A stretch of 40,125 bases of DNA from Fibrobacter sp. (GTDB lineage: Bacteria > Fibrobacterota > Chitinivibrionia > Chitinivibrionales > Chitinispirillaceae): contig JAAYIG010000234.1 in NCBI GenBank assembly GCA_012523595.1, positions 1 to 40,125 of the forward strand, written 5' to 3'. The stretch's first letter is position 1. Each line of letters starts with the position of its first letter. Below the pieces are notes generated by a model. That model was not told where the DNA came from, did not search any database, and saw only the letters and a program-made list of their open reading frames with translations. Below, in pieces: positions 224 through 28,466 of this stretch. The position numbers and the translations under genes are program-made.

Positions 224-1258
224 CTATCCACCCTCAACCACATACTCAATCTTCTCCACCGATACAAGCTCATCTATTCCCCCATACTCCAGCGCCCCTC
301 TCCAGACCATGCTGAGCAGTTTTCTTTTCATGTCAATTATAACTGTCTGCAGTACCGGCTGAAGCTCCTTTGGACCTTTTCCAATATCTATGCTGATATG
401 AGGAATTTCTCCGGGAAGCTCGAATTTAAAAACACTGTACTTACTATCCAGATTCTCAAGCATCACACTCTCTTTACCCTCAAGAACTTTTCCCCAGAGT
501 TCCTCGGAGGCACCCTGAAAAAAGCGGCAGTCAAAACCGAATATTTCCCCCGGCTCACCCTGACTCCCACCGATCTTCTGAACCATTATACCCGCATACT
601 TGAAACGAGGATAAAAGTCCCGACGGGTCCAGCCAAATGACACCGGATTCGGCGTGCAATCCCATCTCCAGGGTTTAGATACAAAGATATTGTCAGGAGT
701 AACAGGTGATAATGGGTCCTCGATCCGGGGTACCTTTACCTGCTCCGGATCAAATGCCCCGTTCTTTATAGTAAAACCTGTCCCGATGGGATTCGGAGGG
801 TATACATGCACAATCCCATGCTTGTCACGGCAATAACCTCCGAAAGCCTGACTGTAGCCCAACTGCATCTCAGTAAATGGAACCGGATCACTGAAGCGAA
901 ATCCTCCAAGTGTGCGGGATTGAAGTTTTCTCTCCCCGTAAACATTTATGGTTTTCCTCATCGGCCCGACCGCAACAGTACACTGCAGCACATAAGCATG
1001 TTTTCCGTCAGGTGCACAGGCATTTCCAGTCACAACCACATCGGTTGACGGTTTAAAGGCAACAAGATCGGATTCAGCGGTCATTTCCGAGTGAAGTATA
1101 TTTGAGGGATCGGCGTATTCATCCGTCAAAATCATAGGCACCTGCTGATCTGTTGCAGTTACCTTTCCCTGCCCGATACTATATGTCCGCTTTCCTATAA
1201 CCGATAATATCTGTCTGCCATCCTGATCTTTTCCGGGTACAAATGCCTTCTGCCACAT
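224..1258 (-). CDS. DUF2169 family protein, type VI secretion accessory/adaptor
   Basis: This 344-residue protein matches the DUF2169 family by its run of conserved pieces: KPSTDVVVTGNA near residue 70, FGGY after a LGYSQA segment near 138, NPIGTGF near 155, a PRIEDPLSP segment near 175, and a FGWTRRDFYPR segment near 210. DUF2169 proteins occur almost only beside vgrG or PAAR genes and are thought to act as chaperones or adaptors that load effectors onto the type VI spike. No signal peptide or membrane segment is visible, as expected for a cytoplasmic loading factor. The ATG lies 10 bp after the vgrG stop codon, so the two are almost certainly cotranscribed. The effector it would serve is not in the window. 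The family is clear; the adaptor role is inferred from the family. Confidence 0.85.
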   Translation of the reverse strand: MWQKAFVPGKDQDGRQILSVIGKRTYSIGQGKVTATDQQVPMILTDEYADPSNILHSEMTAESDLVAFKPSTDVVVTGNACAPDGKHAYVLQCTVAVGPMRKTINVYGERKLQSRTLGGFRFSDPVPFTEMQLGYSQAFGGYCRDKHGIVHVYPPNPIGTGFTIKNGAFDPEQVKVPRIEDPLSPVTPDNIFVSKPWRWDCTPNPVSFGWTRRDFYPRFKYAGIMVQKIGGSQGEPGEIFGFDCRFFQGASEELWGKVLEGKESVMLENLDSKYSVFKFELPGEIPHISIDIGKGPKELQPVLQTVIIDMKRKLLSMVWRGALEYGGIDELVSVEKIEYVVEGG

Positions 1259-1268
1259 TCTCTCCCTT

Positions 1269-3431
1269 TCAGTTAACCATCACTATTCCACCCTTTACAG
1301 TAGTAATCCCCCCGGCACTCAGCTCTGCTGAAACACCCCCTCCTGCCTTGAGACTCACATCTCCCTTTACTTCCACAGTCATTCCCCCCATCTTCAGACC
1401 TCCCGATGCTTTTCCCTCTATCTGCAGAGCATCGAGTTTCAGACTAGTGGCCGCCTTCTGTTCTATACTGAGGCCGCTCTCTTTCAGTGCCTGTGCCGCA
1501 TTTAATTCAATCTCCCCGGAAGAGGATTTAAGTGATACTCCGGTACCACTCACTTCAATATTTCCTCCTGCCTTAAGAGAAATCTTCCCGCCCGTATCCA
1601 GTACAATACCGGATTTCTCCAGCGAAATGGTACTCTGCTTATTCTGTAAAGTTATTTTCCCGCTGCTGTCGTCCAGATCGACACTCAGCCCCTCCCCTGA
1701 CTGCAATGTTACCCGCTTGCTCTTGTCATCCGCCCTGATAACATGGCCTCCCGCCGTGCTAATCGATGCAAAATCCCCATTGTCCCCATTCCCGATAACA
1801 ATTGTATTCTCTCCGCATGTCAAAGAGACTGTTTTGTTCTTTTCATCAAATACTATATGACTTTTCTCAGATGTCCTGATCAGCACCCGATCGTTTTCAT
1901 CATCCATCTCCAGACAGAAACTCTTTTTTGTCATTATACGAACCCGCTGCTTCCCGTCTGTATCATCAAGGAGTATCTCGTTTCCACCAGCACTCCTTAT
2001 GATGTTCTGCTGTTTATTGGTGCTTACTACAGGAGAGACGGTATTGGCATTGGGGATTGTACCCAGACCAAGAGGTTTACTTGGATCTCCATCTATACAG
2101 GCAAGTACCATCTCTGTACCCTGCCTTGCGGGAAAATGGATCCCGTACTGAGGGCCGCTGTTTGGCTGGGCAAGACGGATATATTTCGATCCGCTGCAGT
2201 CATTTTTTCTCTCCGATACATCAAACGGGAAACGGATCTTGTACCTTCCCATTTCATCAATACAAGCATACTCAGGATCATTCGACTCCACTATCCCGGT
2301 GAGAATCCCGTTTACTCTCGGTATATCCGCCTTTATCTCCGGAGCAAACACCCCTGCTCTCTCACCCGGAATACAGGAAAACTCATTGCTGTAAACCGGA
2401 GTGTCATTTCCGTTCTGATGACCTCCGGAATGCTTTACGCATGTCAACAGATAGGGTACGTTGAAGTCAGCACGGTGATGTTCCTTTAATGTAAAACGCA
2501 GTCCGGCTCTGAATCCGCGCTTGTTTCCGGTACCATTCAGTACAATCTGCTGTGTTTTTATGCGCCTGGAAAGCACATCGGCTGACCTTTGAACCTCATC
2601 ACTCTTCCTGCCGAATCCGCCATATTGATAAAATGTTCCGCCTTTGCCGCCCTCGATATCCCTCTTTCCTGTAAGCTCCACTTCCGGGTTGCGGTAATTG
2701 TAATTCCTCACCAGAACTTTTCCGGCAACTGCCTGCTTAGTTGAACTCAGTGACAATATGGATTCAAACTGCTCGAAATTGTCACTTTTGTCAAGGCCAG
2801 AAAGCGGCTTGAAAAGGACATCTTCATTCTCCACTACTCCAAATTCCGCCGGATCATCTGTAACAATCAGTTCCTCGCCTGCTACTTCTGTTTCCTCATT
2901 ATACTGCGGAACCGGATCCTGACGGAAAAGGAACCACACCCCTGCACTCTCCATCAATCTCGAGATGAAATTAAGGTCCGATTCCGCGTATTGAACCACA
3001 AACTCCTGTTCAGGCATATTTGAAACACGTATTCTGTAATTGCCAATTCTGTATTCATCAAGAACTGCCTTGACAATCTCAGGAATGGACATTTTCTGAA
3101 ATATTCTTGATTGCTGATTAAGGCCGGCAAGCCATAGCCTGGGTACCAGAACCGCACCGTAAACACAGTAATCCGTGTTTTTATCAATTATCCGGAATTC
3201 ACTTACAATACCCGAATATGGCAGGTAATTCTGACCGCTGGCAATAAGAAGTGTGGCCGGCATCCCAACGATATCATCATGTCTTATCTGATCGTCACTT
3301 GAGATAAGCGACAGATCAAACCTGTATGGTGAGGAGATTCGTTCTGTTCCGGAAAAACTGGCTACCCGGAAAAGACTTCTGTCCAGACCTCCACAGTAAA
3401 AGCGGAAATGAGTCTCATTGGCCCTGGGCAT
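1269..3431 (-). CDS. vgrG: Type VI secretion tip protein VgrG
   Basis: VgrG forms the trimeric puncturing tip of the type VI secretion tube. The N-terminal half reads like the phage gp27-like part (YRFDLSLIS near residue 35, then SRLMESAGVWFLFRQD), and the middle is the gp5-like OB-fold (YKIRFPFD, then SGSKYIRLAQPNSG and GIHFPARQGTEMVLACIDGDPSKP). The C-terminal ~250 residues are a repetitive beta-rich spike (ISLKAGGNIEVSG, VSLKAGGG) ending in GGIVMVN with no extra effector domain. I chose the ATG at 3431 because GGGAGGG sits 5 nt upstream and MPRANETHF is a typical family start; an in-frame ATG at 3497 would add 22 unlikely residues. The product is about 720 residues, usual for the family. 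No tssB, tssC, hcp or tssM homologue is in the window, so this is a satellite islet rather than the main cluster. Confidence 0.93.
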   Translation of the reverse strand: MPRANETHFRFYCGGLDRSLFRVASFSGTERISSPYRFDLSLISSDDQIRHDDIVGMPATLLIASGQNYLPYSGIVSEFRIIDKNTDYCVYGAVLVPRLWLAGLNQQSRIFQKMSIPEIVKAVLDEYRIGNYRIRVSNMPEQEFVVQYAESDLNFISRLMESAGVWFLFRQDPVPQYNEETEVAGEELIVTDDPAEFGVVENEDVLFKPLSGLDKSDNFEQFESILSLSSTKQAVAGKVLVRNYNYRNPEVELTGKRDIEGGKGGTFYQYGGFGRKSDEVQRSADVLSRRIKTQQIVLNGTGNKRGFRAGLRFTLKEHHRADFNVPYLLTCVKHSGGHQNGNDTPVYSNEFSCIPGERAGVFAPEIKADIPRVNGILTGIVESNDPEYACIDEMGRYKIRFPFDVSERKNDCSGSKYIRLAQPNSGPQYGIHFPARQGTEMVLACIDGDPSKPLGLGTIPNANTVSPVVSTNKQQNIIRSAGGNEILLDDTDGKQRVRIMTKKSFCLEMDDENDRVLIRTSEKSHIVFDEKNKTVSLTCGENTIVIGNGDNGDFASISTAGGHVIRADDKSKRVTLQSGEGLSVDLDDSSGKITLQNKQSTISLEKSGIVLDTGGKISLKAGGNIEVSGTGVSLKSSSGEIELNAAQALKESGLSIEQKAATSLKLDALQIEGKASGGLKMGGMTVEVKGDVSLKAGGGVSAELSAGGITTVKGGIVMVN

Positions 3432-3478
3432 GACACCCTCCCGAATATGTAGAAAGTTGGGAAAAATAAAGAGAGAAC

Positions 3479-3496
3479 TGAGGCGAAGAAGCCTCA
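3479..3496 (-). terminator. Weak hairpin between the lipid operon and vgrG
   Basis: On the minus strand a TGAGGC/GCCTCA stem with a 6-nt loop is followed, after about 8 nt, by a T-rich run ending in TTTATTTTT. It lies downstream of the fabD-like gene and upstream of the vgrG start, so it may limit readthrough from the lipid operon. The stem is short and the T-run is not immediate, so this is tentative. Confidence 0.35.
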
Positions 3497-3581
3497 TCGA
3501 ATTAATATAATTTCGGATCCTGACTGCCAGTATTAATTCTATCTTCAGGAGATATGACCGGTATTCAGCGATTGGAAACCA

Positions 3582-4532
3582 TTAAGTAACCGTTTCCGCG
3601 TATTCCGCCGCAGCGAGCTCCACACCACGGAGATTGTTGATATTATAAATCGTGGTTTCCCTGGCAAACCCGTTTACCCGGGCAAGTCCCGAAAGAACTC
3701 TTCCGGGTCCTACTTCATAAAGGGTGTCTACGCCGGTACTCTTGAGATAATCCATTGACTCACGCCAGAAAACAGGACTGGTCAATTGCCATGTGACAAG
3801 ATGTTTTATGGTGGTTGGGTGAGTCTCAGGTTTTGCGGTAGCGTTAAGCACGATGGGTATGGATGGTTTCTGGAATTTTATCCCTTCAGCCCAGTTCTCA
3901 AACTCCAGACGGACCTCGTTTAAAAATGGGCTGTGCCACGGGCCTACAACATTGACCCTTTTGCATTTCCCCACTTTCTCCTCATTGATACGGGCAGCAA
4001 ACCGGTCCAGCAGCTCGTTATCGCCGGAAATGACTATCTGACGGGAAGCATTGTCATTTGCAAGTACGATACGGTTCGGCTCGTTCATCTCCTCGATATA
4101 CTTCTCCAGAACATCAAGATCAATAAACATCACAGCCATCATGCCGCCATTGACCTGTGATGCCACTTTGTCCATCAGTTCTCCGCGTTTGGCTGCGATA
4201 GAGACAGCGGTTCCGTAAGTTACTACTCCCGCAGCGGCAAGAGAAGAGATCTCTCCTAAAGAGTGTCCCAGAACTATATCCGGAGTAATCCCGTTTTCTA
4301 TCATGCGGTTCAGGTAACCAAGGCTGACAGCTACAAGTGCCGGCTGAAGAAACCTTGCCTGAATCAATTTACGTTCAGGACCGCGTGTGCAAAGCTTTTC
4401 CAGATCCTCATGAGCAAGATCGCTGGCCAGTTCGATGAGTGAACGGAAAAAAGGATCGTCTTTGAGATCCTGCCCCATGCCGATCTCCTGTGATCCCTGC
4501 CCCGGAAATAGAAACGCCTTCTTCACTGTCAT
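3582..4532 (-). CDS. Malonyl-CoA:ACP transacylase-like protein (FabD family)
   Basis: FabD-type enzymes load malonyl (or another acyl) units from CoA onto an acyl carrier protein. The 316-residue sequence has the family start FLFPGQGSQ, the nucleophile motif GHSLGE with Ser91, the carboxylate-binding Arg116 in AAKRGELM, and the catalytic His200 in GPWHSPF. All core residues are therefore present and the length is normal. It is the last gene of the operon, and its ATG overlaps the stop of the FabG-like gene in an ATGA, implying coupled translation. Being inside a dedicated ketosynthase operon, it probably supplies extender units to that ACP rather than being the housekeeping fabD, so I do not give the symbol. 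GPWHSPF has Trp-His where many FabD proteins read FHSP or FHTP, so the preferred acyl group may differ. Confidence 0.93.
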   Translation of the reverse strand: MTVKKAFLFPGQGSQEIGMGQDLKDDPFFRSLIELASDLAHEDLEKLCTRGPERKLIQARFLQPALVAVSLGYLNRMIENGITPDIVLGHSLGEISSLAAAGVVTYGTAVSIAAKRGELMDKVASQVNGGMMAVMFIDLDVLEKYIEEMNEPNRIVLANDNASRQIVISGDNELLDRFAARINEEKVGKCKRVNVVGPWHSPFLNEVRLEFENWAEGIKFQKPSIPIVLNATAKPETHPTTIKHLVTWQLTSPVFWRESMDYLKSTGVDTLYEVGPGRVLSGLARVNGFARETTIYNINNLRGVELAAAEYAETVT

Positions 4533-5278
4533 GCCACTGTCCCCGTCAATCCGCCGTCAACTACTATGGTTTGTCCTATTATATATGACGCATCCTCCGA
4601 GAGGAGAAATGCCACAGCTTTGGCCACCTCTGAGGCTTTACCGAACCGGTGCAGCAGAATTCTGTCAAGGTTCTGATGTTTTATCTGGCGGGGCATTCTG
4701 GCAGTCATATCTGTCTCAATAAACCCGGGAACAACTGCATTTACCCTTATTCCCTTCGGTGCCAGCTCCGCTGCCAGAGATCGTGAGAACGCAAGCAATG
4801 CCCCTTTGGATGAGGCATAATTTGTCTGCCCGGCGATACCCAGAAGACCCGAAACTGAGGCTATATTGACAATCGCTCCGCTCCTGGCATTTATCATCGG
4901 CCTGCTCACAGCCTTAGCCCATCTGAAAGCCCCGCCAAGATTGGTATCGATCACCTTTGTCCATTCCTCCTGGGGCATTGTCATTATAAACTGATCGGAT
5001 GTGATGCCGGCGTTATTCACAAGTATGTCTATCTTCCCCTGTGAACCGATTATGGAATCCACAGTACCGGCAATAAGCCCGCTGTCTGTCTGAGAGCATT
5101 TTACAGCGCTGCTTCCGCTGGATTTCTCCACCTCCGCGGCGGCCTCTTCGTCTCGATTAAATGTAAAGAATACCTTTGCTCCCCTGGAGGCGAGCTCGTG
5201 TACTACCGCTCTCCCTATTCCCCGTGAACCCCCGGTTACCAGGGCGACTTTACCTTCAAAATCTTTGGTATTGTTCAT
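4529..5278 (-). CDS. 3-oxoacyl-ACP reductase-like SDR (FabG family)
   Basis: This is a 249-residue classical short-chain dehydrogenase/reductase with the NADP(H)-binding glycine motif TGGSRGIG (15-22), the NNAG segment (88-91), and the catalytic Ser141, Tyr154 and Lys158 (YASSK). The C-terminal end IIGQTIVVDGGLT is the usual FabG end. It would reduce a 3-ketoacyl-ACP to the 3-hydroxyacyl-ACP. The gene overlaps the thioesterase gene upstream and the FabD-like gene downstream by 4 bp each (ATGA junctions), tying it to this operon. Because no dehydratase or enoyl reductase is encoded alongside, its product either stays a hydroxyl group or is handled by enzymes elsewhere. A housekeeping fabG identity cannot be ruled out, but the context argues for a pathway-specific ketoreductase. 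Confidence 0.93.
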   Translation of the reverse strand: MNNTKDFEGKVALVTGGSRGIGRAVVHELASRGAKVFFTFNRDEEAAAEVEKSSGSSAVKCSQTDSGLIAGTVDSIIGSQGKIDILVNNAGITSDQFIMTMPQEEWTKVIDTNLGGAFRWAKAVSRPMINARSGAIVNIASVSGLLGIAGQTNYASSKGALLAFSRSLAAELAPKGIRVNAVVPGFIETDMTARMPRQIKHQNLDRILLHRFGKASEVAKAVAFLLSEDASYIIGQTIVVDGGLTGTVA

Positions 5279-5706
5279 TTAAGACTCTGGTATTTCTCCC
5301 ATATTTCAGAAGGCCACTCTTTGACAAGCTTTCTGGAGGGATACTCGATTATAGTTATCAGTGTTTCACCTTCTGCAATCGAGGCTCTGGTTTTTTCATT
5401 GACAATTGAGTGTGTGAACTTCAGTTTTCCTCTGTATTCAGACTCAATTTTATGAATAGTAGTCATAATGAGGCTGTCACCGAATCCGGCAAACCCCAGG
5501 TATCTGCATGTATTCTCAATAACCGGGAAAGCATATCCCATGCTGGCTGACTGATCTATAGAAATTATATCAGTCATGATCTGAAGCCGGCCCTCTTCAA
5601 ACCATCTGAAATACTCGGCGTTGTGTACAACCCCCATCATATCCACCTGATAGAAACGCGGGGTGATTTTTAGCTTGCGGATTATGGAGCGCTGGTTGAC
5701 AGTCAT
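5275..5706 (-). CDS. Hotdog-fold acyl thioesterase (4HBT/YbgC-like)
   Basis: A 143-residue protein of the 4-hydroxybenzoyl-CoA thioesterase/YbgC type. The diagnostic stretch is YQVDMMGVVHNAEYFRWFEEGR (19-40), shown here only as a landmark: Asp22 is the expected catalytic acid, and VVHNAEY matches the VVYHANY element of the family. Such enzymes hydrolyse acyl-CoA or acyl-ACP thioesters. In this operon it probably releases or edits a chain on the ACP. The gene starts at an ATG 33 nt after the GcvT-like gene and its stop overlaps the FabG-like start. Hotdog folds also include dehydratases of the FabZ type, but the FabZ motifs are absent, so thioesterase is the better call. Substrate unknown. Confidence 0.85.
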   Translation of the reverse strand: MTVNQRSIIRKLKITPRFYQVDMMGVVHNAEYFRWFEEGRLQIMTDIISIDQSASMGYAFPVIENTCRYLGFAGFGDSLIMTTIHKIESEYRGKLKFTHSIVNEKTRASIAEGETLITIIEYPSRKLVKEWPSEIWEKYQSLK

Positions 5707-5739
5707 GGGAAAGCTGAACCACCCTGGAATCTGAAAGAC

Positions 5740-6834
5740 TCAGATCTCGTCAAGTTTTACGGTAAGGCTCCTGGGCATGATCGGCGGCATGGATATGGTC
5801 CCGATCTGTGGACCACCGGAAGAGCCCGCATTGAAACTGAGACCGGCATAAGCAAAATCAATATCGAACAGCGACAGCCCGATTACAGAATCGAGGGTAT
5901 ATGAGAAACAGGAAGACACAATCTCGGCAACCTGTCTGTCACCATGAAAAACCGGCATCCCTTCTGTAAGAGTATTCTCCCTGAATGTACGTACTCCGAT
6001 TATCTTCTTTTTAAGCCCTTCCTTGCGCCTCTCTAAAATAGCCTCACGGCCGGGGAACTGCTCCTTGTCAAAATCTATCATCCACTGAAGTCCCAGAGGA
6101 AGCGGATCCTTTACACGGGCACCTTCGGCAAACACATTGAAAAACCTGCCCTCGAGACGGAGATCATTGTGAACCGCAGATCCGCACAAGCCGCCTCCGT
6201 TTTTCTTTACAAGTGATTCCAGTATTTCCCACAGTTTGACTGCTGCTTCAAGCGGCACCATCACAAGATAACCAAACTCCGATGTCTTTCCTGCTCTTAA
6301 CAGCCGTACTTCAGAACCCTCGAAAGGATATGTCTCTATGGAAAGATAGGGAAGACCGAGGATATCTGTGCCGAAAAGTTCCTTCATTACAGCCCACGCT
6401 TTATACCCGTCAACACCAAAAACAGCGTGAGTCTCAGTCAGATCCTTTACATCCGGACTGGCCGTGAAAATCGACCGCAGTTTCGCATCGTCGGTGATAC
6501 TCTCACAGAACACCAGCAGTTCATCATCATTGTTTGCAATATAGCAATCGGCAAGAATCATCCCGTTGTCATCGGGAATAAAAGTATGAAGCACCCTTCC
6601 AAAGCGGATCTTTGCGACATTTCCCGCGGCCAGGGAATCCAGTAAGTCAAACCCTGACTCCTCAGGCACACTGAATTTCTGCATATATGAGAAATCAGTC
6701 AACCCTGCGTTATCCCTTACATGATAATATTCGGTCTTATTATCGGAAAAAACAGCGGCGACCTCTGTACCGTATCTCTCTGTAAACTGTGCTCCGGCTG
6801 AAGCCAGTTGCCCTCGGATTGGTGATACTCTCAT
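5740..6834 (-). CDS. GcvT-like (aminomethyltransferase/YgfZ-fold) protein of the lipid operon
   Basis: The 364-residue sequence follows the GcvT fold from end to end: an N-terminal half with VRDNAGLTDFSYMQKFSV (about 38-55), matching the VR..AGLFD.SH..K..V element, and a C-terminal part with PLPLGLQWMIDFDK, FPGREAI and GLKKKIIGVR, the end-domain signature. The fold binds tetrahydrofolate in glycine cleavage T-protein and in folate-dependent demethylases. Key T-protein features are changed: the segment matching GGVIDDLI reads GMILADCY, and the C-terminal barrel ends in a divergent tail. It is therefore not a second T-protein (the true gcvT is at 27296). The start lies 3 nt after the ACP stop. 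A C1-transfer, demethylation or folate-dependent repair role in the operon is inference; family membership is solid. Confidence 0.8.
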   Translation of the reverse strand: MRVSPIRGQLASAGAQFTERYGTEVAAVFSDNKTEYYHVRDNAGLTDFSYMQKFSVPEESGFDLLDSLAAGNVAKIRFGRVLHTFIPDDNGMILADCYIANNDDELLVFCESITDDAKLRSIFTASPDVKDLTETHAVFGVDGYKAWAVMKELFGTDILGLPYLSIETYPFEGSEVRLLRAGKTSEFGYLVMVPLEAAVKLWEILESLVKKNGGGLCGSAVHNDLRLEGRFFNVFAEGARVKDPLPLGLQWMIDFDKEQFPGREAILERRKEGLKKKIIGVRTFRENTLTEGMPVFHGDRQVAEIVSSCFSYTLDSVIGLSLFDIDFAYAGLSFNAGSSGGPQIGTISMPPIMPRSLTVKLDEI

Positions 6835-6837
6835 TAT

Positions 6838-7128
6838 CTATTCAGCCTTCTTTTCCTGCTCTGCAAGTACAAAATCAACTACAGTATTGATTGAACGAAG
6901 TATCGATGTATTCTGGTCCGGGACCTTTATCCCGAAAGAGTTCTCAATACAGAGAACTATCTCCAGGGCATCAAGTGAATCCAGTCCCAAACCCGCTCCC
7001 AACAAAGAAACATCCTCATGAAGATCCTGAGGTTCATAGGGAAGATTCAAACGACGGATAAGTTCTTCTTTGAACTTACCTATTATTGCTTTCCTCTTCT
7101 CTATCTGTGAATTGATATCTTGAGCCAT
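6838..7128 (-). CDS. Acyl carrier protein
   Basis: A 96-residue acyl carrier protein. The phosphopantetheine attachment site is Ser51 in GLDSLDALE, followed by helix III features typical of ACPs (IENSFGIKVPDQ). A charged N-terminal extension of about 15 residues precedes the four-helix core. It would carry the growing chain of the pathway as a thioester on its 4'-phosphopantetheine arm. It sits between the double ketosynthase gene (23 nt upstream) and the GcvT-like gene (3 nt downstream), so it is the dedicated carrier of this operon rather than the housekeeping acpP, which normally lies beside fabF and fabG in a fatty acid cluster. No phosphopantetheinyl transferase gene is seen nearby. Confidence 0.93.
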   Translation of the reverse strand: MAQDINSQIEKRKAIIGKFKEELIRRLNLPYEPQDLHEDVSLLGAGLGLDSLDALEIVLCIENSFGIKVPDQNTSILRSINTVVDFVLAEQEKKAE

Positions 7129-7151
7129 AAAGAAAAATCTTCTCTTTCACT

Positions 7152-9458
7152 TCAGAAAACTTCCAATACCACCACACAGCTCATTCCTCGAAGGGAGCTG
7201 AAAAACGTTACAATATAATTTTTGTGTTCATTTTTTCCAACTAATCCTGACTTCAACGCCGCGGTAAGGTTATATAATGGAGAACTTGATGGGGCAAAAC
7301 CGATCACAGGAGTCAAATCCACAGTCTGCAATTCATCTCCCAGCACAGTTTTTACTGTCTCCCGTTCCCTTTCATTCCAGGAGTTATAGCATACCATCCC
7401 AACCCTGCTTTTTTCAACCCCTGCCTTGTTAATTACACTGTTCAGCAGATTTTCCAGAGAACTTCTGCCGGCATCTCCTCCGGAAACGCACCCATCAAAA
7501 GAAAATTCAATTCCCCTGATAAGGCAGATCGGGGTTGCACCCCGTGCCTCCGCCCTTGAAAGCGGCTCCAGAAAAAACATCACTGAACCCTCACCCGCTG
7601 CCGCTTCTGCTCCTTTTCCTTTCTCCGAAAGGAAACAATCAATCAGCCCCTGCTCAGACATATCATCTACAGTCCCACAAAGAAAAGCGGAGGCATGATT
7701 GTTCTTTACAGCAGCCCAGGCCATCCCAAGACCCAGAAGTCCTGCTCCAGGTCCATTGCAAAAAGTATTGTTGTACCCGGTCAATGAAAGTACACGACAA
7801 ACCGTTCCTGTTACGGAATTAGGTACAATAAACGGGAATACATTTATCTGCTCTAACTGGTATCCGTTTTTCAGCAAAGGACGTATATGCTCAGGTTCAG
7901 CCCACGTTGAGCCATGGGCAAGGTTCATATAAAAACCAATTTCCGACCTGGAGGAAGGTCTGTCAGAAATTCCCGCGTTTTTCAGTGCGAGCGCTCCTGC
8001 TGCACAAGCCATTTTCCCTGCTCTGTCTATCCCCCGGGAGTTGAGCTTTCTGTCTATTGAAGAAAGTTCAAAATCCGGGACTTCAGCCACTCTCAGTCTG
8101 CTGCCATCCCTTGTTACCTTCTCCCTGAATGTTATTCCATTGACTGAAAAATCTTCAAACTTATCCCATCCAATACCCGCTGCAGAAACGACCCCTATTC
8201 CTGAGATACATACAGGGTCTGTATCCGGAATACCATTTTCCGGGATTGAAATTTCAGAACCGGTAGAAACAATTACCGATGCGTTGTTGCCCCCGAAAGC
8301 AAAATTATTCTTGATAAAAACATGTTCGCCTTTCCATGACCTGCCCGCATCCGGAACATAATCCAGATTACAGCCCTCCCTTGCCACTGTGAAATTGGCA
8401 GTAGGAGGATATATGCCGTTTTTAGAACAGATAAGCGAAGCAACTGTCTCTACAGCGCCTGCAGCCCCAAGGCAGTGCCCTACCATAGACTTGAGAGAAC
8501 TTACCGGAACAGAACCGGACCACTCCCCGAACACCTTCTTTATGGCTTTGGTTTCTGCTTTATCATTGGCTTCAGTTCCAGTTCCATGCGCGCTTATATA
8601 ACCGATAACCTCAGGGGTTACACCCGAATCCCTGAATGCCAGTTGCATGCTGAACGATGCTCCTTTTCCGGATGGATCCGGTGCGGAACAATGGTAGGCA
8701 TCGTTTGACAACCCATAGCCAAGGATCTCACCTGTAATGGTTGCTCCACGTGATCTGGCGTATTCTGACTCTTCAAGAACCAGAAATCCGGCACCCTCCC
8801 CGAGATTAAGCCCTGAAGGAAGAGAAAATGGAGCACTTGGCTGCCTGGATGTTGCTTTTAATCCGGCAAAACCACAAAGAGTTGTTATACTCAAAGCATC
8901 CGCTCCTCCAACAAGAGCAGTGTCCAGTATCCCACACCTTATCAGGTCGCCGGCAGCAGCAATGGCAGCATTAAAAGCGGAACAGGCTGTGGTAACAGTA
9001 AATGCCGGTCCCTTTATCCCAAAAGCGGATGCCAGAAGCATTGCAGCGCTATAGTATTGTTTTTTAAATAAAAGGTCTTCGGAGCAGAAGTCGGAACCGT
9101 TTATCTCCTGCAAATAAAGATCCTCGATTGTCAGCATGGGGCCTGAGCAGGTGCCCAGAATGAGGCCTGTTCTCTCTCCTCCCCTCAGAGCAACTCCGGA
9201 TTGTTTCAGTGCTTCACAAGCGGCTATATACGCCAACTTTACAAATCTGTCTTCTGCGGAAAATGCGGAATCCTCCAGTTCAGGAGAATCGATTTCCCCA
9301 ACCAGACCGGCAAATTGAGGCCCGAAGTGGGCAATCCGGGGATCTTCAACCCTGCTGATACAGGTCTTTCCGGCTATAAGGGATTTCCTGAACTCATCGA
9401 CTCCTCTTCCGGCACTGCAGATTACACCCATGCCGGTAATCACTACCCTCTTTCTCAC
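7152..9458 (-). CDS. Tandem ketosynthase: active KS fused to a degenerate KS (chain-length-factor-like)
   Basis: A 768-residue protein made of two FabF-like ketosynthase domains. Domain 1 (about 3-400) has the complete condensing site: Cys159 in TVTTACSAF, His291 in HGTGTEAND, Lys323, and His328 in GHCLGAAG. Domain 2 (about 415-768) keeps the thiolase fold landmarks (ISGIGVVSAAG at the start) but lacks the site. The nucleophile position falls on Pro570 within NGPGAG, and no HGTGT or GH motif is seen. This is the arrangement of type II polyketide KS and chain length factor subunits, here in one chain. It starts with GTG, overlapping the upstream stop in a GTGA. It would extend an ACP-bound chain; product unknown. 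Confidence 0.9.
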   Translation of the reverse strand: MRKRVVITGMGVICSAGRGVDEFRKSLIAGKTCISRVEDPRIAHFGPQFAGLVGEIDSPELEDSAFSAEDRFVKLAYIAACEALKQSGVALRGGERTGLILGTCSGPMLTIEDLYLQEINGSDFCSEDLLFKKQYYSAAMLLASAFGIKGPAFTVTTACSAFNAAIAAAGDLIRCGILDTALVGGADALSITTLCGFAGLKATSRQPSAPFSLPSGLNLGEGAGFLVLEESEYARSRGATITGEILGYGLSNDAYHCSAPDPSGKGASFSMQLAFRDSGVTPEVIGYISAHGTGTEANDKAETKAIKKVFGEWSGSVPVSSLKSMVGHCLGAAGAVETVASLICSKNGIYPPTANFTVAREGCNLDYVPDAGRSWKGEHVFIKNNFAFGGNNASVIVSTGSEISIPENGIPDTDPVCISGIGVVSAAGIGWDKFEDFSVNGITFREKVTRDGSRLRVAEVPDFELSSIDRKLNSRGIDRAGKMACAAGALALKNAGISDRPSSRSEIGFYMNLAHGSTWAEPEHIRPLLKNGYQLEQINVFPFIVPNSVTGTVCRVLSLTGYNNTFCNGPGAGLLGLGMAWAAVKNNHASAFLCGTVDDMSEQGLIDCFLSEKGKGAEAAAGEGSVMFFLEPLSRAEARGATPICLIRGIEFSFDGCVSGGDAGRSSLENLLNSVINKAGVEKSRVGMVCYNSWNERERETVKTVLGDELQTVDLTPVIGFAPSSSPLYNLTAALKSGLVGKNEHKNYIVTFFSSLRGMSCVVVLEVF

Positions 9459-12400
9459 CAGCCCTCCATACCTTCACCACAGGCAACTACAACAGCGAAG
9501 TTATACCCCACATCGCTGCTGCCAAGGGCGAGGATATAACGGGGATGTTCCTTCAGTTTTCTATTGTCAATGTAATCCAGGCCGGTCCTCTGAGCCCAGA
9601 GAGGTTCATTCTCATTCAGAGAGTAAAGCACAAGTCCAAGACTGTGAAGAATAGAAGCGGATTCGATGTATCCTGTGTTAAGCGATGTAGCAGCCATGGG
9701 AAGATCACTCCATCTCTCCCCCATTACGCTTTCAAGTGCTCTGAGCACCTTCAGATCCTGAGCATTGCCCTGGGGTGCCCAGACCGCAAGCCCGATCTGG
9801 TCTGAGGAGACTCCGCTTCTTTTCAAAGCCTTTTCAACTGCCCTCACCAGACCTTCACTACCCAGACACTGGTTCTGGAACCCGCAGGTATCCATTGCCA
9901 TTCCATAACCAAGGATTTCAGCCAGCACAGGTATTTCGCGTTCCTTAACAGACGACAAAGTCTCCAGTACCAGGGCCGCCGATCCCTCACCTATCACCTT
10001 TCGTCTGAGTTCTTCAGGATAAATGCGGTAATTTGCTTCCTGTTCTCCACTGTAAAGATATCCGATCTGTTCGTAATTATAATAGGTCTGGGCATAAACC
10101 TCATCTGATGCCGCGGCAACAATGGCCCTGGCACGATTCAAAGCCAGCATGTCAAAAGCATAAGAGAGGCTCTGAAGTCCGGCATGATGTCCCGGAGCGA
10201 GAGTCATGTTTATCCCTTTGAGACACAGCGCATTTGCAACCCAGCCAGCGGTAGAGTTTGCAGTAATATTTGAGAAACAGTTTATGTCAGGCGAGTAATC
10301 AGGAGTTGAAAACACACTGTTCATGTGCTCGGCTTCAGATGATCCGTTGCAGATACCCATCACTATTCCCACATTTTCCGCTATTGCGGGTCTGACACGG
10401 AATTTTGCATTCGCAAGCGCATCGGCTGAAGCCGCAGTGGCATAAGTGCTGATCAGATTCATACCTGAAAAATCAAGACGTCTGTCGATTTCATCTGCCC
10501 GGAATTCAGGTACAAGCCCAGCAAGTTTCGATTCAAAAGAGGGAAGTTTCAGACGCGAAACCGGACCGGTTCCGACCCTGTTTTCTCTCAGAGCCGTGAG
10601 ATTGACACTTGCTTTGACACCGAGGGAACTGACCGCTCCGACACCTGTTATAAATACCCGTTCCGGTCTGATCTCACGCGCCTTTATTGGAGTATCCCAT
10701 TTGGATATCACAACTGCTGCATTGTTCCCGCCGAAAGCATAGTTTGCAGACATGAATGCCTCGTATTCCTTCTCACGTGGAACATTTGGCACATAATCCA
10801 GCGTACATCCCGGACGGGCTTCGGAGAAATTCAATGTAGGAGGAATAAAACCATTATTCATCGCTAAGAGATTGCAGGTCGCCTCTAAAATTCCGGTTGT
10901 CCCCATACAGTGGCCAAAAAAAGATTTGGTAGAAGTGACCGGAACAGGCTTATCACCAATAAACTTCGAAATTCCCTTTGATTCAGCCCTGTCATTTGCT
11001 TCAGTACCGGTTCCATGCGCATTTATACATCCGATACTTTCAATCTCCATTCCCGCATCGTCAAGAGCAGCTTTCAGTGTCCGGCAGACTCCCTCACCTC
11101 TGGGATCAGGAGATGTTGGATGATACGCATCACAGGATGTGGCATGCCCGACCAGTTTTCCAAGGCACCTTGCGTTGCGAAGCAGCGCCTGCTCCATCTC
11201 CTCTATCACCCAGAAACATGATGCCTCACCGATATTTAGTCCCGCAGGAATGGAAAAGGGAGAGATGCGGGTTGTAGAGATTGCTTTGAGCCCGTTAAAA
11301 CCGGATACATTTGCTACACACAGCGAATCGGACCCGCCTGCCAGCACTGTCTTGAAATACCCGCGATTTATGAGAGTCTGCGCCAGTCCCAGAGCAGCAG
11401 TTGTTGACGAGCAGGCAGTAGTGACAATCCACACATCTGAAGTTAACCCAAGGGCGTTCGCCAGAGCCTTTCCGAATCCATAATACTGTGCCATCAGATT
11501 CATTTTTTCATCGAATGGCTTTTCGCTCTTCTTATGAATCCACTTGTACTCTTCTTCTGCTGAACGCAGCCCTCCGTTGCAGGTACCCAGCACGAGTGCT
11601 ATTTCGGAACCGTCAAGTTTGTTAATTGTCAGATTGGCATCAGCAAGAGCCGAACGTGCGGCGCTAATGGCGTACCAGAAATAGGGATCATCGTATAATG
11701 CTATCTCCTCTTTGCTCAGGAACTTCTCCGGATCAAAATTCCTTATTTCACCGCAGAGATCTGTCCTGAAATGGGAAGCATCAAAATGTGTCGCCGGTTT
11801 CAGCCCGTGCTTTCCGGCCTTTAATGCATCCGTTAATTCATCCTTGCTGTTTCCAATGGGACTCAGCACTCCTATACCGGTGATTACCGCCTGTCCGCGG
11901 ATTCCCTGTCTCTCCAGAGGTTTACCAACAGACCGTTTACCCTCTTTCCAGGTCGCAGGTTCCAGATGTGCGGCATGTGATGTCTTCTGCATGCGGAAGA
12001 ATTCATTCCAGACCTTTATAAACTGTCCGTAAAGCTCTTCAGCAGACATGCCCATGGGTTGTGAGACCACATGCGCTCCGTTGTAGTGTGACCAGTCTGT
12101 ATCAATTATCCTCTTCTGGCGCACCAGGCGATCCCAGTGCACTGAACCGGGGTAAGGTGTGAATATGAAAAACTCAGCAGTATGGATACCAGCTTTGTCA
12201 AAGAGATTTAAAATCCTGTCGGCAATCGAATTGTCATCCCAGTCCCTGCCAATAGCACAGGAGCCAAAAAATCTGATATCACGGTCCTCCAGCATCTTTA
12301 CAAGATCACAGAGCATGGCCTGCTCCTGGATGCCTCCGTTCAAGGCCCTGATCGAGATCGGATCCACATTCATCGTGCAGTAGAAATTCTTTACACCTGC

Positions 12401-13216
12401 ACGGGCGGCAAGATCCAGGAACTCCTTATCGGTATTGAGCGCCATGGTTGAGGAAACGAAATATTTCTTCCCCAGCGGAATAAGCGCCTCAAAAAGTTCT
12501 TTTGCATACTGTGCAATTTTGCTCTGCTGAAAGAAAAGCGTGTCATCGGCAAGATAAACATTCTCATATTTCAGTTGAGCTATCTCTTCAACAACATCTT
12601 TGATGGGCCGGAAACGGATTCTGGTGCCCATGTGAGCCGGTATGGCACACATCGCGCAATTGTACATACAACCGCGTGTCAACTGAACAAGATCCTCATC
12701 CCAGTCATAACCCTGTTTGCTGTAGAAGAGATCTCTCCTGGGAATTTTCATCTGGGACAGATCAAAGCTGTGCCTGCCTTTGTAAATTCTCTGCAGCTTT
12801 CCATTCCGGGCATCTTCAAGTATCTGTCCCCACGTGGGTTCCCCTTCACCAATATTTACAGAATCAGCATACTTCAAACATTCATCAGCCATGAATGAGG
12901 GAAAAAAACCACCCATTATCACTTTTTTACCGTGATCACGGTAACCCTGGGCGAGCTGGAAGGCTCTTGTGGCCTGCGGAGTAAAGCAGTTAATCGCCAC
13001 CAGATCGGCATCGATATCAAAATCCACCGGATCACCGTTGTTGTCATCAACCAGAACCACTTCGTGCTCCGAAGGAGTCAGTGATGCCAGAATCGGAATA
13101 CCCAGAGATGGAGGTGTGGTGAAATCACCAAGGAAGTAATCAATCAGACCTTTATCGAGATCAGGATTATTCTTGAGAAACTTTTCAAAGTGCGGATAAA
13201 CAAATACAATTTTCAC
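9455..13216 (-). CDS. B12-binding radical SAM enzyme fused to KS and degenerate KS domains
   Basis: A 1253-residue three-part protein. Residues 1-145 look like a B12-binding Rossmann domain (VVLVDDNN, DLVAINCF, VIMGGFFPSF, NIGEGEPTW) without a DxHxxG motif. Residues 170-420 are a radical SAM domain with the 4Fe-4S motif C183-x3-C187-x2-C190 and a DUF4070-like tail. Residues 443-840 are a full ketosynthase with Cys602, His734 (HGTGT), Lys764 and His769. Residues 850-1253 are a second ketosynthase fold without the site: His1010 replaces the cysteine, and Tyr1183 the second histidine. The start is GTG with only a weak AGGA about 15 nt upstream. It is the first gene of the operon. Coupling of a radical step to chain extension is inferred from the fusion. 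I see no stop codon or frameshift in the linker, so the fusion appears real. Confidence 0.9.
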   Translation of the reverse strand: MKIVFVYPHFEKFLKNNPDLDKGLIDYFLGDFTTPPSLGIPILASLTPSEHEVVLVDDNNGDPVDFDIDADLVAINCFTPQATRAFQLAQGYRDHGKKVIMGGFFPSFMADECLKYADSVNIGEGEPTWGQILEDARNGKLQRIYKGRHSFDLSQMKIPRRDLFYSKQGYDWDEDLVQLTRGCMYNCAMCAIPAHMGTRIRFRPIKDVVEEIAQLKYENVYLADDTLFFQQSKIAQYAKELFEALIPLGKKYFVSSTMALNTDKEFLDLAARAGVKNFYCTMNVDPISIRALNGGIQEQAMLCDLVKMLEDRDIRFFGSCAIGRDWDDNSIADRILNLFDKAGIHTAEFFIFTPYPGSVHWDRLVRQKRIIDTDWSHYNGAHVVSQPMGMSAEELYGQFIKVWNEFFRMQKTSHAAHLEPATWKEGKRSVGKPLERQGIRGQAVITGIGVLSPIGNSKDELTDALKAGKHGLKPATHFDASHFRTDLCGEIRNFDPEKFLSKEEIALYDDPYFWYAISAARSALADANLTINKLDGSEIALVLGTCNGGLRSAEEEYKWIHKKSEKPFDEKMNLMAQYYGFGKALANALGLTSDVWIVTTACSSTTAALGLAQTLINRGYFKTVLAGGSDSLCVANVSGFNGLKAISTTRISPFSIPAGLNIGEASCFWVIEEMEQALLRNARCLGKLVGHATSCDAYHPTSPDPRGEGVCRTLKAALDDAGMEIESIGCINAHGTGTEANDRAESKGISKFIGDKPVPVTSTKSFFGHCMGTTGILEATCNLLAMNNGFIPPTLNFSEARPGCTLDYVPNVPREKEYEAFMSANYAFGGNNAAVVISKWDTPIKAREIRPERVFITGVGAVSSLGVKASVNLTALRENRVGTGPVSRLKLPSFESKLAGLVPEFRADEIDRRLDFSGMNLISTYATAASADALANAKFRVRPAIAENVGIVMGICNGSSEAEHMNSVFSTPDYSPDINCFSNITANSTAGWVANALCLKGINMTLAPGHHAGLQSLSYAFDMLALNRARAIVAAASDEVYAQTYYNYEQIGYLYSGEQEANYRIYPEELRRKVIGEGSAALVLETLSSVKEREIPVLAEILGYGMAMDTCGFQNQCLGSEGLVRAVEKALKRSGVSSDQIGLAVWAPQGNAQDLKVLRALESVMGERWSDLPMAATSLNTGYIESASILHSLGLVLYSLNENEPLWAQRTGLDYIDNRKLKEHPRYILALGSSDVGYNFAVVVACGEGMEGW

Positions 13217-13240
13217 TTATAACCGGAATTCCTAAAAGAG

Positions 13241-13270
13241 AGTATAATCTCAGAGAAATGCATTTCACAA
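13241..13270 (-). promoter_or_regulatory. Candidate promoter of the lipid operon
   Basis: On the minus strand TTGTGA (13265-13270) and TATACT (13241-13246) are separated by 18 bp, a reasonable sigma-70 type promoter 25-50 bp upstream of the GTG start at 13216. The -35 element overlaps the right half of the inverted repeat at 13261-13280. Confidence 0.5.
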
Positions 13271-13280
13271 CCGTGAAATG
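13261..13280. promoter_or_regulatory. Inverted repeat, candidate operator
   Basis: A perfect palindrome with 8-bp arms, CATTTCAC and GTGAAATG, around a 4-bp centre. It lies in the 221-bp divergent region between the lipid operon and the aminopeptidase operon and covers the -35 element of the minus-strand promoter. Size and symmetry suit a dimeric repressor site. No regulator gene is next to it. A second palindrome, ATACATATATGTAT, occurs at 13349-13362. Confidence 0.5.
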
Positions 13281-13437
13281 ATCCTCCGATAAAGCCTTCT
13301 GACAGTATGGTTACCGTAAAAATATATATTTGTATTAGGATCGGACATATACATATATGTATTCACTTATCCACCGACGTGTATTAAGACACACGGAAAT
13401 CCTTTTATTTCCATATTTTTACTAAATCGGAGCAATC

Positions 13438-14829
13438 ATGAAACTAAGGCTTTCCAGAAATGCCACTTTTTCTACCCACATTATCTTTACCACAAAAGAA
13501 CAGACCCGTGGGATAGCAGATTTCGCGGGTGAGGCTGGTGATCTGGAGGTCCGATATGAGGGGAAAAAGACTATAATCTATTGTGGATTGGGTGAAAAAG
13601 CCCTTTTAAACACTCGGATCATACGAAGCTCATCGGCCCGGGGAATCCGTAAAGCAGTGGAGCTGAAAAGAGATTCCGTTTCACTAATCCTGCCTTCAGT
13701 AAAGATCCCGGCATCAGAATCCGGCACTGCAGCAGTAGAAGGGGCGATTCTTGGAGCTTATTCATTCTGCCGCTATAAGAGCGAAAAGGCACATTCCATT
13801 AAAACAGTCGAAGTGATCGGAGACCTCAGTGCTTCAAGCCTTAAGCAGACAGAGGCAATCTGTAAAGGGGTCAATTATGCCCGCGACCTGGTTAACAGCA
13901 ACGCATCGGAGATTACCCCGGAAAAACTCGCCAAAGAAGCCCTGAGCCTCAGCCAACCCGGAAAATTGAAGGTAACCGTTCTAAATGAAAAGGAATTGAA
14001 ACAGAAGGGACTCAATCTGATCTATGCAGTCGGTCAGGGTTCGCCATTTCCACCAAGACTCATATTAATGGAATATAAAGGTAATCCCAAATCAAAGTTT
14101 AAAACCGCTATTGCGGGAAAAGGAATCACTTTCGATTCAGGCGGACAGAACCTCAAGCCCACTGGACATATTGAGGCGATGCGCATGGATATGGCCGGGG
14201 CAGCTACGGTTCTGGCTACAATGAAAGTGCTCTCCGAGCTGAAACCTGCTGTTAATGTAATCGGGGTTATAGGCGCTGCGCACAATGCTATTGGCGAGAA
14301 CGCATTTTTCCCGGGAGACATTTACAAATCATACCTGGGTAAAACCGTGGAGATCAACAGTACTGACGCTGAGGGAAGGCTGGTGCTTGCAGATGCGGTT
14401 GCCTACTGCAACGAAACATGTAAACCTGACCGTCTGGTTGATCTTGCTACTTTAACCGGTGGTATTTTGTTTGCTTTGGGTGAACTTGTCGCAGGCCTTT
14501 TCTCAAATGATGATAAGCTGGCAGATCTGCTTTTTAAATGCGGCGAACATACAGGAGAGAGATTGTGGAGATTCCCGATGTATAAGGAGTATTGCGATTC
14601 GATCAAAGGTGACCTGAGTGATCTGAGGAATCTTTCCAAATTCAAAAAAGGCTATGCCAGTTCCATCACCGGCGCGGCATTTATCAAGGAATTTATCGGA
14701 GACACTCCCTGGGCACACATTGACATTGCCGGAACTGCATTCAATGAGGGACAGGCTCGCGGTGAAATTCCTCAGTATGGAACCGGTTTTGGTGTCAGAC
14801 TTCTTATGGAGTTTCTTCTCAGATCATGA
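13438..14829 (+). CDS. M17 family leucyl aminopeptidase
   Basis: A cytosolic dinuclear-metal aminopeptidase that trims N-terminal residues from peptides. The 463-residue protein has every catalytic position of PepA in register: metal ligands Lys228, Asp233 (KGITFDSGG), Asp251, Asp310 and Glu312 (STDAEGRLVLADA), plus the catalytic Lys240 and Arg314. The N-terminal domain (1-150) is divergent and the protein is about 40 residues shorter than E. coli PepA; the DNA-binding role of PepA should not be assumed. A GGAG about 8 nt upstream supports the ATG. Its stop overlaps the ATG of the phosphodiesterase gene (ATGA), so these genes form one operon. The promoter should lie in the divergent region, but I cannot place it with confidence. 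Confidence 0.93.
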   Translation: MKLRLSRNATFSTHIIFTTKEQTRGIADFAGEAGDLEVRYEGKKTIIYCGLGEKALLNTRIIRSSSARGIRKAVELKRDSVSLILPSVKIPASESGTAAVEGAILGAYSFCRYKSEKAHSIKTVEVIGDLSASSLKQTEAICKGVNYARDLVNSNASEITPEKLAKEALSLSQPGKLKVTVLNEKELKQKGLNLIYAVGQGSPFPPRLILMEYKGNPKSKFKTAIAGKGITFDSGGQNLKPTGHIEAMRMDMAGAATVLATMKVLSELKPAVNVIGVIGAAHNAIGENAFFPGDIYKSYLGKTVEINSTDAEGRLVLADAVAYCNETCKPDRLVDLATLTGGILFALGELVAGLFSNDDKLADLLFKCGEHTGERLWRFPMYKEYCDSIKGDLSDLRNLSKFKKGYASSITGAAFIKEFIGDTPWAHIDIAGTAFNEGQARGEIPQYGTGFGVRLLMEFLLRS

Positions 14830-18857: not shown

Positions 18858-20372
18858 ATGCCCCAATCAGCAATTTCCGCTTATCTTAGCGGCAGAAATC
18901 CCGACCAGATAGATTCCGGCATGATAGCCTACCTTGGAAACCTCCAGGAGGTTTCAAAGGTATCTCCCGGTATCTGCAAATCTATCGTGAAGGAACTTGC
19001 TGATCAGAGATCGAATCTCAAGCTGATCGCAAGCGAGAATTACTGTTCTCTTTCAACACAGCTCGCTATGGGTAACCTCCTTACAGATAAATACGCGGAG
19101 GGCTATCCTTTTCACAGGTTTTATGCCGGATGCAGTAATGTGGACGATATCGAAGCCTATGCTGCAGAGCAAGCCTGTAAACTGTTTGGAGCAGAGCATG
19201 CCTATGTTCAGCCCCACAGCGGTGCAGATGCAAATCTGATTGCCTACTGGGCTATTCTTAACAGCCGCATCGAGATTCCCGAACTGGAAAAAATCGGTGA
19301 AACAAACCCCTCAAAGCTCTCCCAGGAAGACTGGAATACACTCAGGGCAAAACTGGGTAATCAGCGTCTTCTGGGAATGGATTACTACTCGGGCGGGCAC
19401 TTAACCCACGGCTACAGGCATAATATTTCAGCACAGATGTTCGATTCCTATAATTATAGTGTCAATCCCTCCACGGGCCTTCTCGACTATGATGAAATAG
19501 AGAGAATGGCAATGGAGATAAAGCCTCTTATACTGCTGGCTGGTTACAGCGCCTACCCCCGGTGCATCAATTTTGCCAGGATGCGCCAGATAGCCGATAA
19601 AGCCGGAGCAGTATTTATGGTGGATATGGCTCATTTTGCCGGGCTGGTTGCCGGAGGTGTTTTCAAGGGAGATTTCAACCCGATTCCTCATGCACATGTT
19701 GTCACCACTACCACCCACAAGACACTCCGGGGACCAAGAGGCGGACTCATTCTCTGCGTTAAGGAATTCGCAGAAAGCGTGAACAAAGGATGTCCGCTTG
19801 TGATTGGTGGTCCACTGGCTCATGTGATGGCCGCAAAAGCGGTTGCTTTGACAGAGGCTAATTCTCCGGAATTTAAAAAATACGCCGCATCCATTGTCGA
19901 AAACGCCTCAACACTGGCAGGATTCTGCATGGAGATGAGAATGAAAGTTGCCACAGGAGGAACAGACAACCATCTGTTCCTTATCGATGTCACCCCCTTT
20001 GGCCTCACCGGACGTCAGGCAGAGAGTGCTCTGAGAGACTGCGGAATCACTTTAAACCGCAACTCTCTGCCGTTTGATCCCAACGGTCCCTGGTACACCA
20101 GCGGTTTACGTATCGGAACACCTGCTGTCACCACTCTGGGAATGGGACCGGAGCAGATGAAAGAAATAGCATCGATAATAAGCCTGGTCTTGTCAAATAC
20201 AAAACCTGAGACCTCCACAAAAGGAGAGCAGGCCGGGAAACCATCGAAGGCAAAGTACTCTACCGATACAAACGCGGCTCAGGAAGCCATATCTCGTGTA
20301 AAGGCACTGCTTGATCGCTTTCCGGTCTATCCTCAGCTCGATCTCGATTTTCTCCAGAAGCAATTTTCCTGA
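18858..20372 (+). CDS. glyA: Serine hydroxymethyltransferase
   Basis: GlyA interconverts serine plus tetrahydrofolate and glycine plus 5,10-methylene-THF, the main C1 source. The 504-residue protein is longer than the usual ~420 owing to an N-terminal extension and an insert around 135-175; similarly long forms are known from chlamydiae and spirochaetes. Landmarks are LIASEN (57-61), HSGADAN (120-126), [12 protein letters not shown] (256-267), the PLP lysine Lys288 in [14 protein letters not shown], and [15 protein letters not shown] (near 423). The first active-site region reads HRFYAGC where most enzymes have RYYGGC. An ATGGAG upstream fits the ATG. The ZTP riboswitch directly in front supports the assignment and its link to purine and folate status. 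A strong terminator follows, so it is monocistronic. Functionally it pairs with the gcv operon at 27.3 kb. Confidence 0.96.
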
Positions 20373-28381: not shown

Positions 28382-28466
28382 TCCTGTTTCTATACTGTGC
28401 TGCTCCATATAACCACGATTACAGTAAACTGTTGGATCTTCAACCAATCATAGAAGGAGAAAAAAC

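Follow-up and report, generated by a model that had tools for sequence, protein, structure and literature searches.

What does an uncultured anaerobic bacterium build with a radical S-adenosylmethionine (SAM) enzyme that is joined to a ketosynthase (KS) and encoded beside a relative of the T-protein GcvT? The question is raised by a seven-gene operon on the minus strand of a 40,125-nucleotide contig of Fibrobacter sp. (JAAYIG010000234.1, assembly GCA_012523595.1), which was analyzed over its full length and is referred to here as the window. We propose, with a probability of roughly 0.55, that the operon encodes a dedicated anaerobic type II assembly line, built on ketosynthase-chain length factor (KS-CLF) pairs, whose product would be an unusual acyl chain, radical-modified and probably unsaturated, that is destined for a membrane lipid.

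Organization and conservation of the operon

Within its 4.1 Mb assembly the window is contig C234; its closest relatives in the public genome collection are Fibrobacterota metagenome bins. Coordinates and domain profile searches yielded seven intact minus-strand genes between positions 3582 and 13216, with the domains that a sequence-only reading of the window had predicted:

9455 to 13216, minus strand: gene 1 (P0001), fusion of B12-binding-like, radical SAM, KS and CLF domains, 1253 aa, GTG start (domain profiles)
11897 to 13216, minus strand: radical SAM part of gene 1, residues 1-440, CxxxCxxC motif (C183, C187, C190) and N-terminal B12-binding-like Rossmann domain
10691 to 11902, minus strand: KS domain of gene 1, residues ~439-842, Cys-His-His intact
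9458 to 10687, minus strand: CLF domain of gene 1, residues ~844-1253, active-site Cys lost
7152 to 9458, minus strand: gene 2 (P0002), KS-CLF fusion, 768 aa, optional (domain profiles, tree)
6838 to 7128, minus strand: gene 3, acyl carrier protein (ACP), 96 aa, GLDSLD phosphopantetheine motif
5740 to 6834, minus strand: gene 4 (P0004), GcvT-like protein, 364 aa (GCV_T domain, T-protein fold, Asp96)
5275 to 5706, minus strand: gene 5, YbgC-like 4HBT hotdog thioesterase, 143 aa, in some relatives only (domain profiles)
4529 to 5278, minus strand: gene 6, FabG-type ketoreductase, 249 aa (domain profiles)
3582 to 4532, minus strand: gene 7, FabD-type malonyl transferase, 316 aa, GHSLGE motif
13217 to 13437, no strand: intergenic stretch that separates the operon from a divergently oriented M17 leucyl aminopeptidase gene, probable promoter region

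Three 4-bp overlaps (9455-9458, 5275-5278 and 4529-4532), one fewer than had been counted, connect the genes, and the remaining gaps measure 23, 3 and 33 bp. Matches returned by a promoter and terminator scan did not rise above chance.

The same seven-gene order, which the sequence-only reading had suggested seeking elsewhere, is intact in one relative (L009), whose radical SAM part is 88% identical to that of the window. Between these two loci the radical SAM part has a ratio of non-synonymous to synonymous substitution (dN/dS) of 0.03, and the KS-CLF parts, the ACP and the GcvT-like gene have values of 0.05-0.08; for the thioesterase, FabG and FabD the ratio could not be computed, dS being saturated (dN 0.11-0.25). 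The shared order and the low ratios argue against a chance arrangement, and the ratios show that the operon genes are under strong purifying selection.

Genes 1 and 2 each encode a KS-CLF pair

Both fused proteins had been read as tandem ketosynthases. This holds for the first KS domain of each, in which Cys-His-His is intact throughout (22 of 22 radical SAM-linked and 11 of 11 standalone examples). It does not hold for the second KS-like domain, where both the active-site Cys and a counterpart of the His pair are missing. A 73-domain tree, calculated quickly and containing some long branches, placed the two KS groups as sisters and the two second-domain groups as sisters (SH-aLRT 99 and 99), joined the latter to CLF-like proteins of a separate cluster (SH-aLRT 97) and kept all KS domains of the operon outside FabF on a supported branch. 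Taken together, the residue losses and the tree demonstrate that genes 1 and 2 each encode a KS-CLF pair and that one fused pair was duplicated. Two independent FabF duplications as the source of the KS domains were ruled out, since the tree pairs KS with KS and CLF with CLF.

The system thus has the make-up of a type II KS-CLF assembly line, in which a catalytic KS stands beside a Cys-less KS-like partner and the remaining functions are discrete: the ACP and the ketoreductase FabG are encoded in the operon and a FabZ dehydratase on a different contig of the same genome, C203. This FabZ probably serves the assembly line of the operon.

Distribution of the operon and a second, three-gene operon

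To score the full fusion we used a profile of its radical SAM part and accepted frames of ~1250 aa with >800 bits. It was found in 17 of 168 Fibrobacterota genomes, all of them in the order of the window (17 of 40 genomes there), and in 2 of 388 sampled Verrucomicrobiota genomes; several further Verrucomicrobiota bins also carry it, its occurrence there being sporadic. Its presence in 17 genomes and in Verrucomicrobiota rules out an assembly artefact as the origin of the radical SAM-KS fusion. The operon-specific GcvT-like protein occurred in 15 of the 168 genomes, all among the 17 with the fusion (Fisher p 1e-19; 3e-9 within the 40 genomes of the order), values that ignore relatedness and therefore describe co-occurrence rather than independent events. 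In the two fusion genomes without it, G022 and G039, the operon runs into a contig end.

Nearly every locus whose contig continues contains a core of radical SAM-KS-CLF, ACP, GcvT-like protein and FabG. In L013 and L020 the part from ACP to FabG lies elsewhere, and a GcvT-like gene is on other contigs of both genomes. The second KS-CLF is dispensable, being missing from several loci that look complete, among them L018 (a Verrucomicrobiota bin) and L045. An O-methyltransferase gene with a Dimerisation2-like domain adjoins the operon in three loci, one of them a Verrucomicrobiota bin (L044 12526-13719, L013 8364-9437 and L019 17333-18679).

The operon had been presented as the whole gene set. 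The operon itself is real, but the set is incomplete, because a second, unlinked operon belongs to it. This trio encodes a PlsC-type acyltransferase (Pfam Acyltransferase, AGP type), the FabZ dehydratase, which supplies the activity that the seven genes lack, and a fusion protein in which SCP2 is joined to a flavodoxin/FMN-reductase domain. In the genome of the window it forms a tight operon with 4-bp overlaps on contig C203 (L097, 9636-11988); in six other loci (L015, L017, L022, L044, G030 and G031) it flanks the main operon, so that all ten genes are syntenic. The SCP2 fusion carries an invariant C-x2-C-x2-C-x7-C motif, which we take to resemble that of the iron-sulfur flavoprotein (Isf) family. 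It occurred in 16 of the 17 genomes with the radical SAM-KS-CLF fusion and in one other (p ~1e-20, again irrespective of relatedness). Given the acyltransferase, a glycerolipid is the probable destination of the product.

The radical SAM domain and its relation to ladderane-type clusters

Gene 1 scores above the cut-off of PF04055, which places it in the radical SAM superfamily. Across 15 relatives the CxxxCxxC motif is invariant, and the B12-binding-like Rossmann core is conserved with it. The N-terminal domain has a B12-binding fold and a Pfam B12-binding score of 31.9 bits against a cut-off of 32.1. The best structural match to an AlphaFold model (pLDDT 81) was AprD4, a radical diol dehydratase (Z 28.9), followed by MgmA (24.8), CysS (23.9), TsrM (23.1) and OxsB (21.6). 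Accordingly, both a dehydratase-type and a methyltransferase-type reaction are possible.

The sequences closest to the radical SAM part are standalone radical SAM proteins (380-435 bits) from a second cluster of the same order, which also encodes KS, CLF, FabG, FabZ, LpxL-like and phytoene-desaturase-like genes. In L037 (G018:C127, 5831-17182) this cluster has two standalone B12-type radical SAM genes, and in the genome of the window it is spread over the contig ends C12, C221 and C172 (L040, L041 and L049). Two loci, L046 (G037:C21, 6482-9280) and L047 (1123-3888), contain a 932-aa protein in which a phytoene-desaturase-like flavoenzyme is fused to a B12-type radical SAM domain; the counterparts are separate neighboring genes in L037, and the fusion hints at successive steps. 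A further locus in the genome of the window (L051, G000:C58, 5318-10254) combines KS, ACP, Ketoacyl-synt_2 and KS genes with a polysaccharide deacetylase gene.

Compared by gene set rather than by sequence, the second cluster resembles clusters of the anammox bacterium K. stuttgartiensis (Kuenenia) and of D. psychrophila (Desulfotalea) (Rattray et al. 2009, PMC2649909). These clusters likewise belong to anaerobes, place radical SAM enzymes, one of them B12-binding, among genes of the fatty acid synthesis type together with divergent KS paralogues, and are linked to radical chemistry on lipid chains. The operon might accordingly be a branch of ladderane or anaerobic polyunsaturated-hydrocarbon biosynthesis, in which radical SAM enzymes working with KS paralogues would add unsaturation or rings to fatty chains, and gene 1 does match TIGR04072 (rSAM_ladder_B12). 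The match is weak, however: 52.7 bits against an equivalog cut-off of 360, which rejects strict ladderane membership. Moreover, the radical SAM domain of the operon is fused to KS-CLF and has a dedicated GcvT-like partner, whereas the ladderane paper (PMC2649909) makes no mention of a GcvT, glycine or aminomethyl gene; phytoene-desaturase-like genes are absent from the operon and present in the separate second cluster. That cluster is spread more widely in the order, and seven genomes carry it but not the operon. We therefore regard a ladderane-type product as unlikely.

The GcvT-like protein

The model of the GcvT-like protein (pLDDT 90) has a T-protein fold, with Z 39.9 to 1woo at 22% identity and Z 22.4 to YgfZ. 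The catalytic Asp96 (T. maritima numbering) is kept in all 14 GcvT-like relatives, and the R-G-T-E-G and R226 positions are invariant. The protein thus shares fold and catalytic Asp with the GcvT/DmdA/YgfZ family and differs from it by a rebuilt pocket and by its tie to a single gene cluster. Glu195, which is kept in GcvT, DmdA, DMGDH and the window's own GcvT, is replaced by L, Q, Y, M or C in 14 of 14 relatives; Tyr83 is changed to H, Tyr100 to A, V or C, Tyr188 to K and Arg227 to H. His83, Cys97, Lys183 and His222 of the GcvT-like proteins are invariant, Cys97 being new. We take Tyr83, Tyr188, Glu195 and Arg227 to be folate contacts of T-proteins, an assignment for which the papers searched gave no confirmation.

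A maintenance role for Fe-S proteins of the YgfZ/Iba57 kind was rejected. The signature of that family is a KGCxxGQE-type motif with a Cys; the corresponding stretch of P0004 reads EQFPGREA and has no Cys, and the fold is closer to T-proteins (Z ~40) than to YgfZ (Z ~22).

In every locus that has both genes, the GcvT-like gene directly adjoins the ACP gene. T-proteins work on a lipoyl carrier, the H-protein, and by analogy the GcvT-like protein may act on the ACP-bound chain. It could do so as a true folate-dependent C1 transferase, attaching a methyl, methylene or methoxy group to acyl-ACP or taking one away, a role with which the fold, the invariant Asp96, R-G-T-E-G and R226 positions and the proximity to the ACP gene are all consistent. 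The sequence-only reading had likewise counted the C1-folate fold toward C1 chemistry. The loss of Glu195, together with the gained invariant His, Cys, Lys and His residues, makes such chemistry doubtful, as do the replacements at Tyr83, Tyr100, Tyr188 and Arg227 insofar as these positions contact folate. The simplest reading is that a T-protein fold was recruited and its active site rebuilt. Against the GcvT equivalog TIGR00528 the protein scores 117.6, below the cut-off of 235.85.

A complete canonical gcvT-gcvH-gcvPA-gcvPB operon lies in the same window at 27296-31629, 20 kb from the GcvT-like gene (gcvT at 27296-28381), and the GcvT-like copy is thus not needed for glycine cleavage. A serine hydroxymethyltransferase gene is located at 18858-20372.

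Aryl-polyene and housekeeping explanations

The operon could also be an accessory module of aryl-polyene or flexirubin biosynthesis, making the polyene or a second acyl chain of a pigment lipid. In L015 (413-9918) and L022 (231-9776) it directly follows genes for an AMP-ligase, a GT2-LpxL fusion, an aromatic amino acid lyase, a LolA-sized protein, an MMPL exporter, a KS and a ketoreductase, and L017, whose contig starts there, carries the later part of this set (753-7165). The earlier statement that the operon differs from aryl-polyene clusters is therefore correct for the window but too general, given these three relatives. The logic is shared as well: ApeO-ApeC is a KS-CLF heterodimer acting with ketoreductase, dehydratase and ACP, and without enoyl reductase, in a reducing type II line (PMC8358021). 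Its CLF is, however, separate and half-sized, in contrast to the fused, full-length CLFs of the operon, and neither a radical SAM enzyme nor a GcvT-like protein accompanies it. Aromatic-starter and MMPL genes are absent from the window and from L009, L011, L012, L044 and L045, and in the domain tree the KS domains of the operon did not group with the KS of the neighboring aryl-polyene-type genes. This makes the explanation less probable than the two considered above. In summary, the operon shares gene families with ladderane-type clusters but lacks the features by which ladderane, aryl-polyene and GcvT membership was judged here.

That the operon is simply a duplicate of a housekeeping locus for fatty acid synthesis, to which the likeness of FabG, FabD and ACP points, is very improbable and was rejected. 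A separate, standard PlsX-FabH-FabD-FabG-FabF set (assigned by position and sequence) lies on contig C212, and its FabF clusters with that of E. coli; more than half of the order lacks the operon; and the KS domains of the operon fall outside FabF and come with a radical SAM fusion and a GcvT-like partner. The earlier view of an unassigned lipid- or polyketide-type line with a radical SAM entry gene, distinct from housekeeping synthesis, is borne out, and the C212 set means that the organism has a further locus for making fatty acids besides the operon.

Proposed pathway

In the pathway that we infer for the dedicated acyl line, FabD would charge the dedicated ACP with malonyl, chain extension would fall to the KS-CLF units, FabG would reduce the ketone and FabZ from C203 would dehydrate the product. 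Double bonds may remain, because the gene set encodes no enoyl reductase. The radical SAM domain, covalently joined to KS-CLF, may modify the ACP-bound chain during or between extensions, with the Isf-like/SCP2 protein as a plausible electron donor to its cluster, a lipid carrier, or both. The GcvT-like protein would act on the carrier-bound chain next to the ACP, not necessarily using folate. Where present, the thioesterase could release or edit chains, and the AGP-type acyltransferase from C203 would place the finished chain into a glycerolipid.

Several points weigh against this proposal. The enoyl reductase of housekeeping fatty acid synthesis could act in trans. Cobalamin binding by the radical SAM domain is uncertain, its Pfam score lying just under the cut-off, and AprD4, the best structural match, is not known to bind cobalamin. 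Some loci lack the second KS-CLF, the thioesterase or FabD, which leaves only radical SAM-KS-CLF, ACP, GcvT-like protein and FabG as the core. In the three relatives with adjoining aryl-polyene-type genes, the product may serve a different molecule. Finally, the pathway is proposed from sequence.

Among known systems, the polyunsaturated fatty acid synthase PfaC likewise joins KS and CLF in one polypeptide and makes polyunsaturated chains without oxygen. It differs in being a type I megasynthase whose ACPs are in tandem and whose dehydratases are fused, and the matches of the operon to TIGR02813 are weak. The jawsamycin/fuelimycin polycyclopropane pathway, which combines an iterative polyketide synthase, a radical SAM cyclopropanase, a ketoreductase and in some cases a thioesterase, is similar in outline, as an iterative KS acts without enoyl reductase and the growing chain is radical-modified; its radical SAM enzyme is a separate, HemN-like protein with Cx7CxxC as its motif (PMC13389473), whereas that of the operon, part of a type II system, has CxxxCxxC and a B12-binding-like domain and is fused to KS-CLF. 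Among openly licensed papers we found no report combining radical SAM, ketosynthase and GcvT, or aminomethyltransferase, ketosynthase and ACP, or describing a radical SAM-CLF fusion, in keeping with the earlier statement that no standard pathway has this gene set. A catalogue of type II polyketide synthases (PMC10132072) does not mention radical, fusion, Fibrobacter or Verrucomicrob. For Chitinispirillum alkaliphilum, which may or may not carry the operon, the published lipid data list common iso/anteiso and saturated chains along with two polar lipids of unidentified nature (PMC4814513).

Neighboring genes

The divergent M17 leucyl aminopeptidase gene (13438-14829, plus strand) neighbors the operon in at least eight Fibrobacterota loci and has no obvious functional link to it. 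Just downstream, on the strand of the operon, lie genes for VgrG, a type VI secretion tip protein, and DUF2169 (224-3497), with no sign of operon membership.

Implications

A bolder form of the proposal, which we hold tentatively, is that the operon represents a new class of anaerobic lipid biosynthesis. Here, a KS-joined radical SAM enzyme would edit the chain by methylation, ring closure or radical dehydration, and a GcvT fold would have been re-tooled from folate to act on ACP instead of H-protein; the outcome in Fibrobacterota and some Verrucomicrobiota would be a new membrane lipid. If the proposed pathway is correct, these bacteria would possess a self-contained ten-gene route to a lipid, in which one polypeptide couples a radical enzyme to chain extension and a protein of the GcvT fold seems to have departed from folate chemistry. 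The ten genes named here can be expressed together, and they would offer a compact, testable handle on the radical chemistry that anaerobes carry out on lipid chains, the question behind ladderane biosynthesis.

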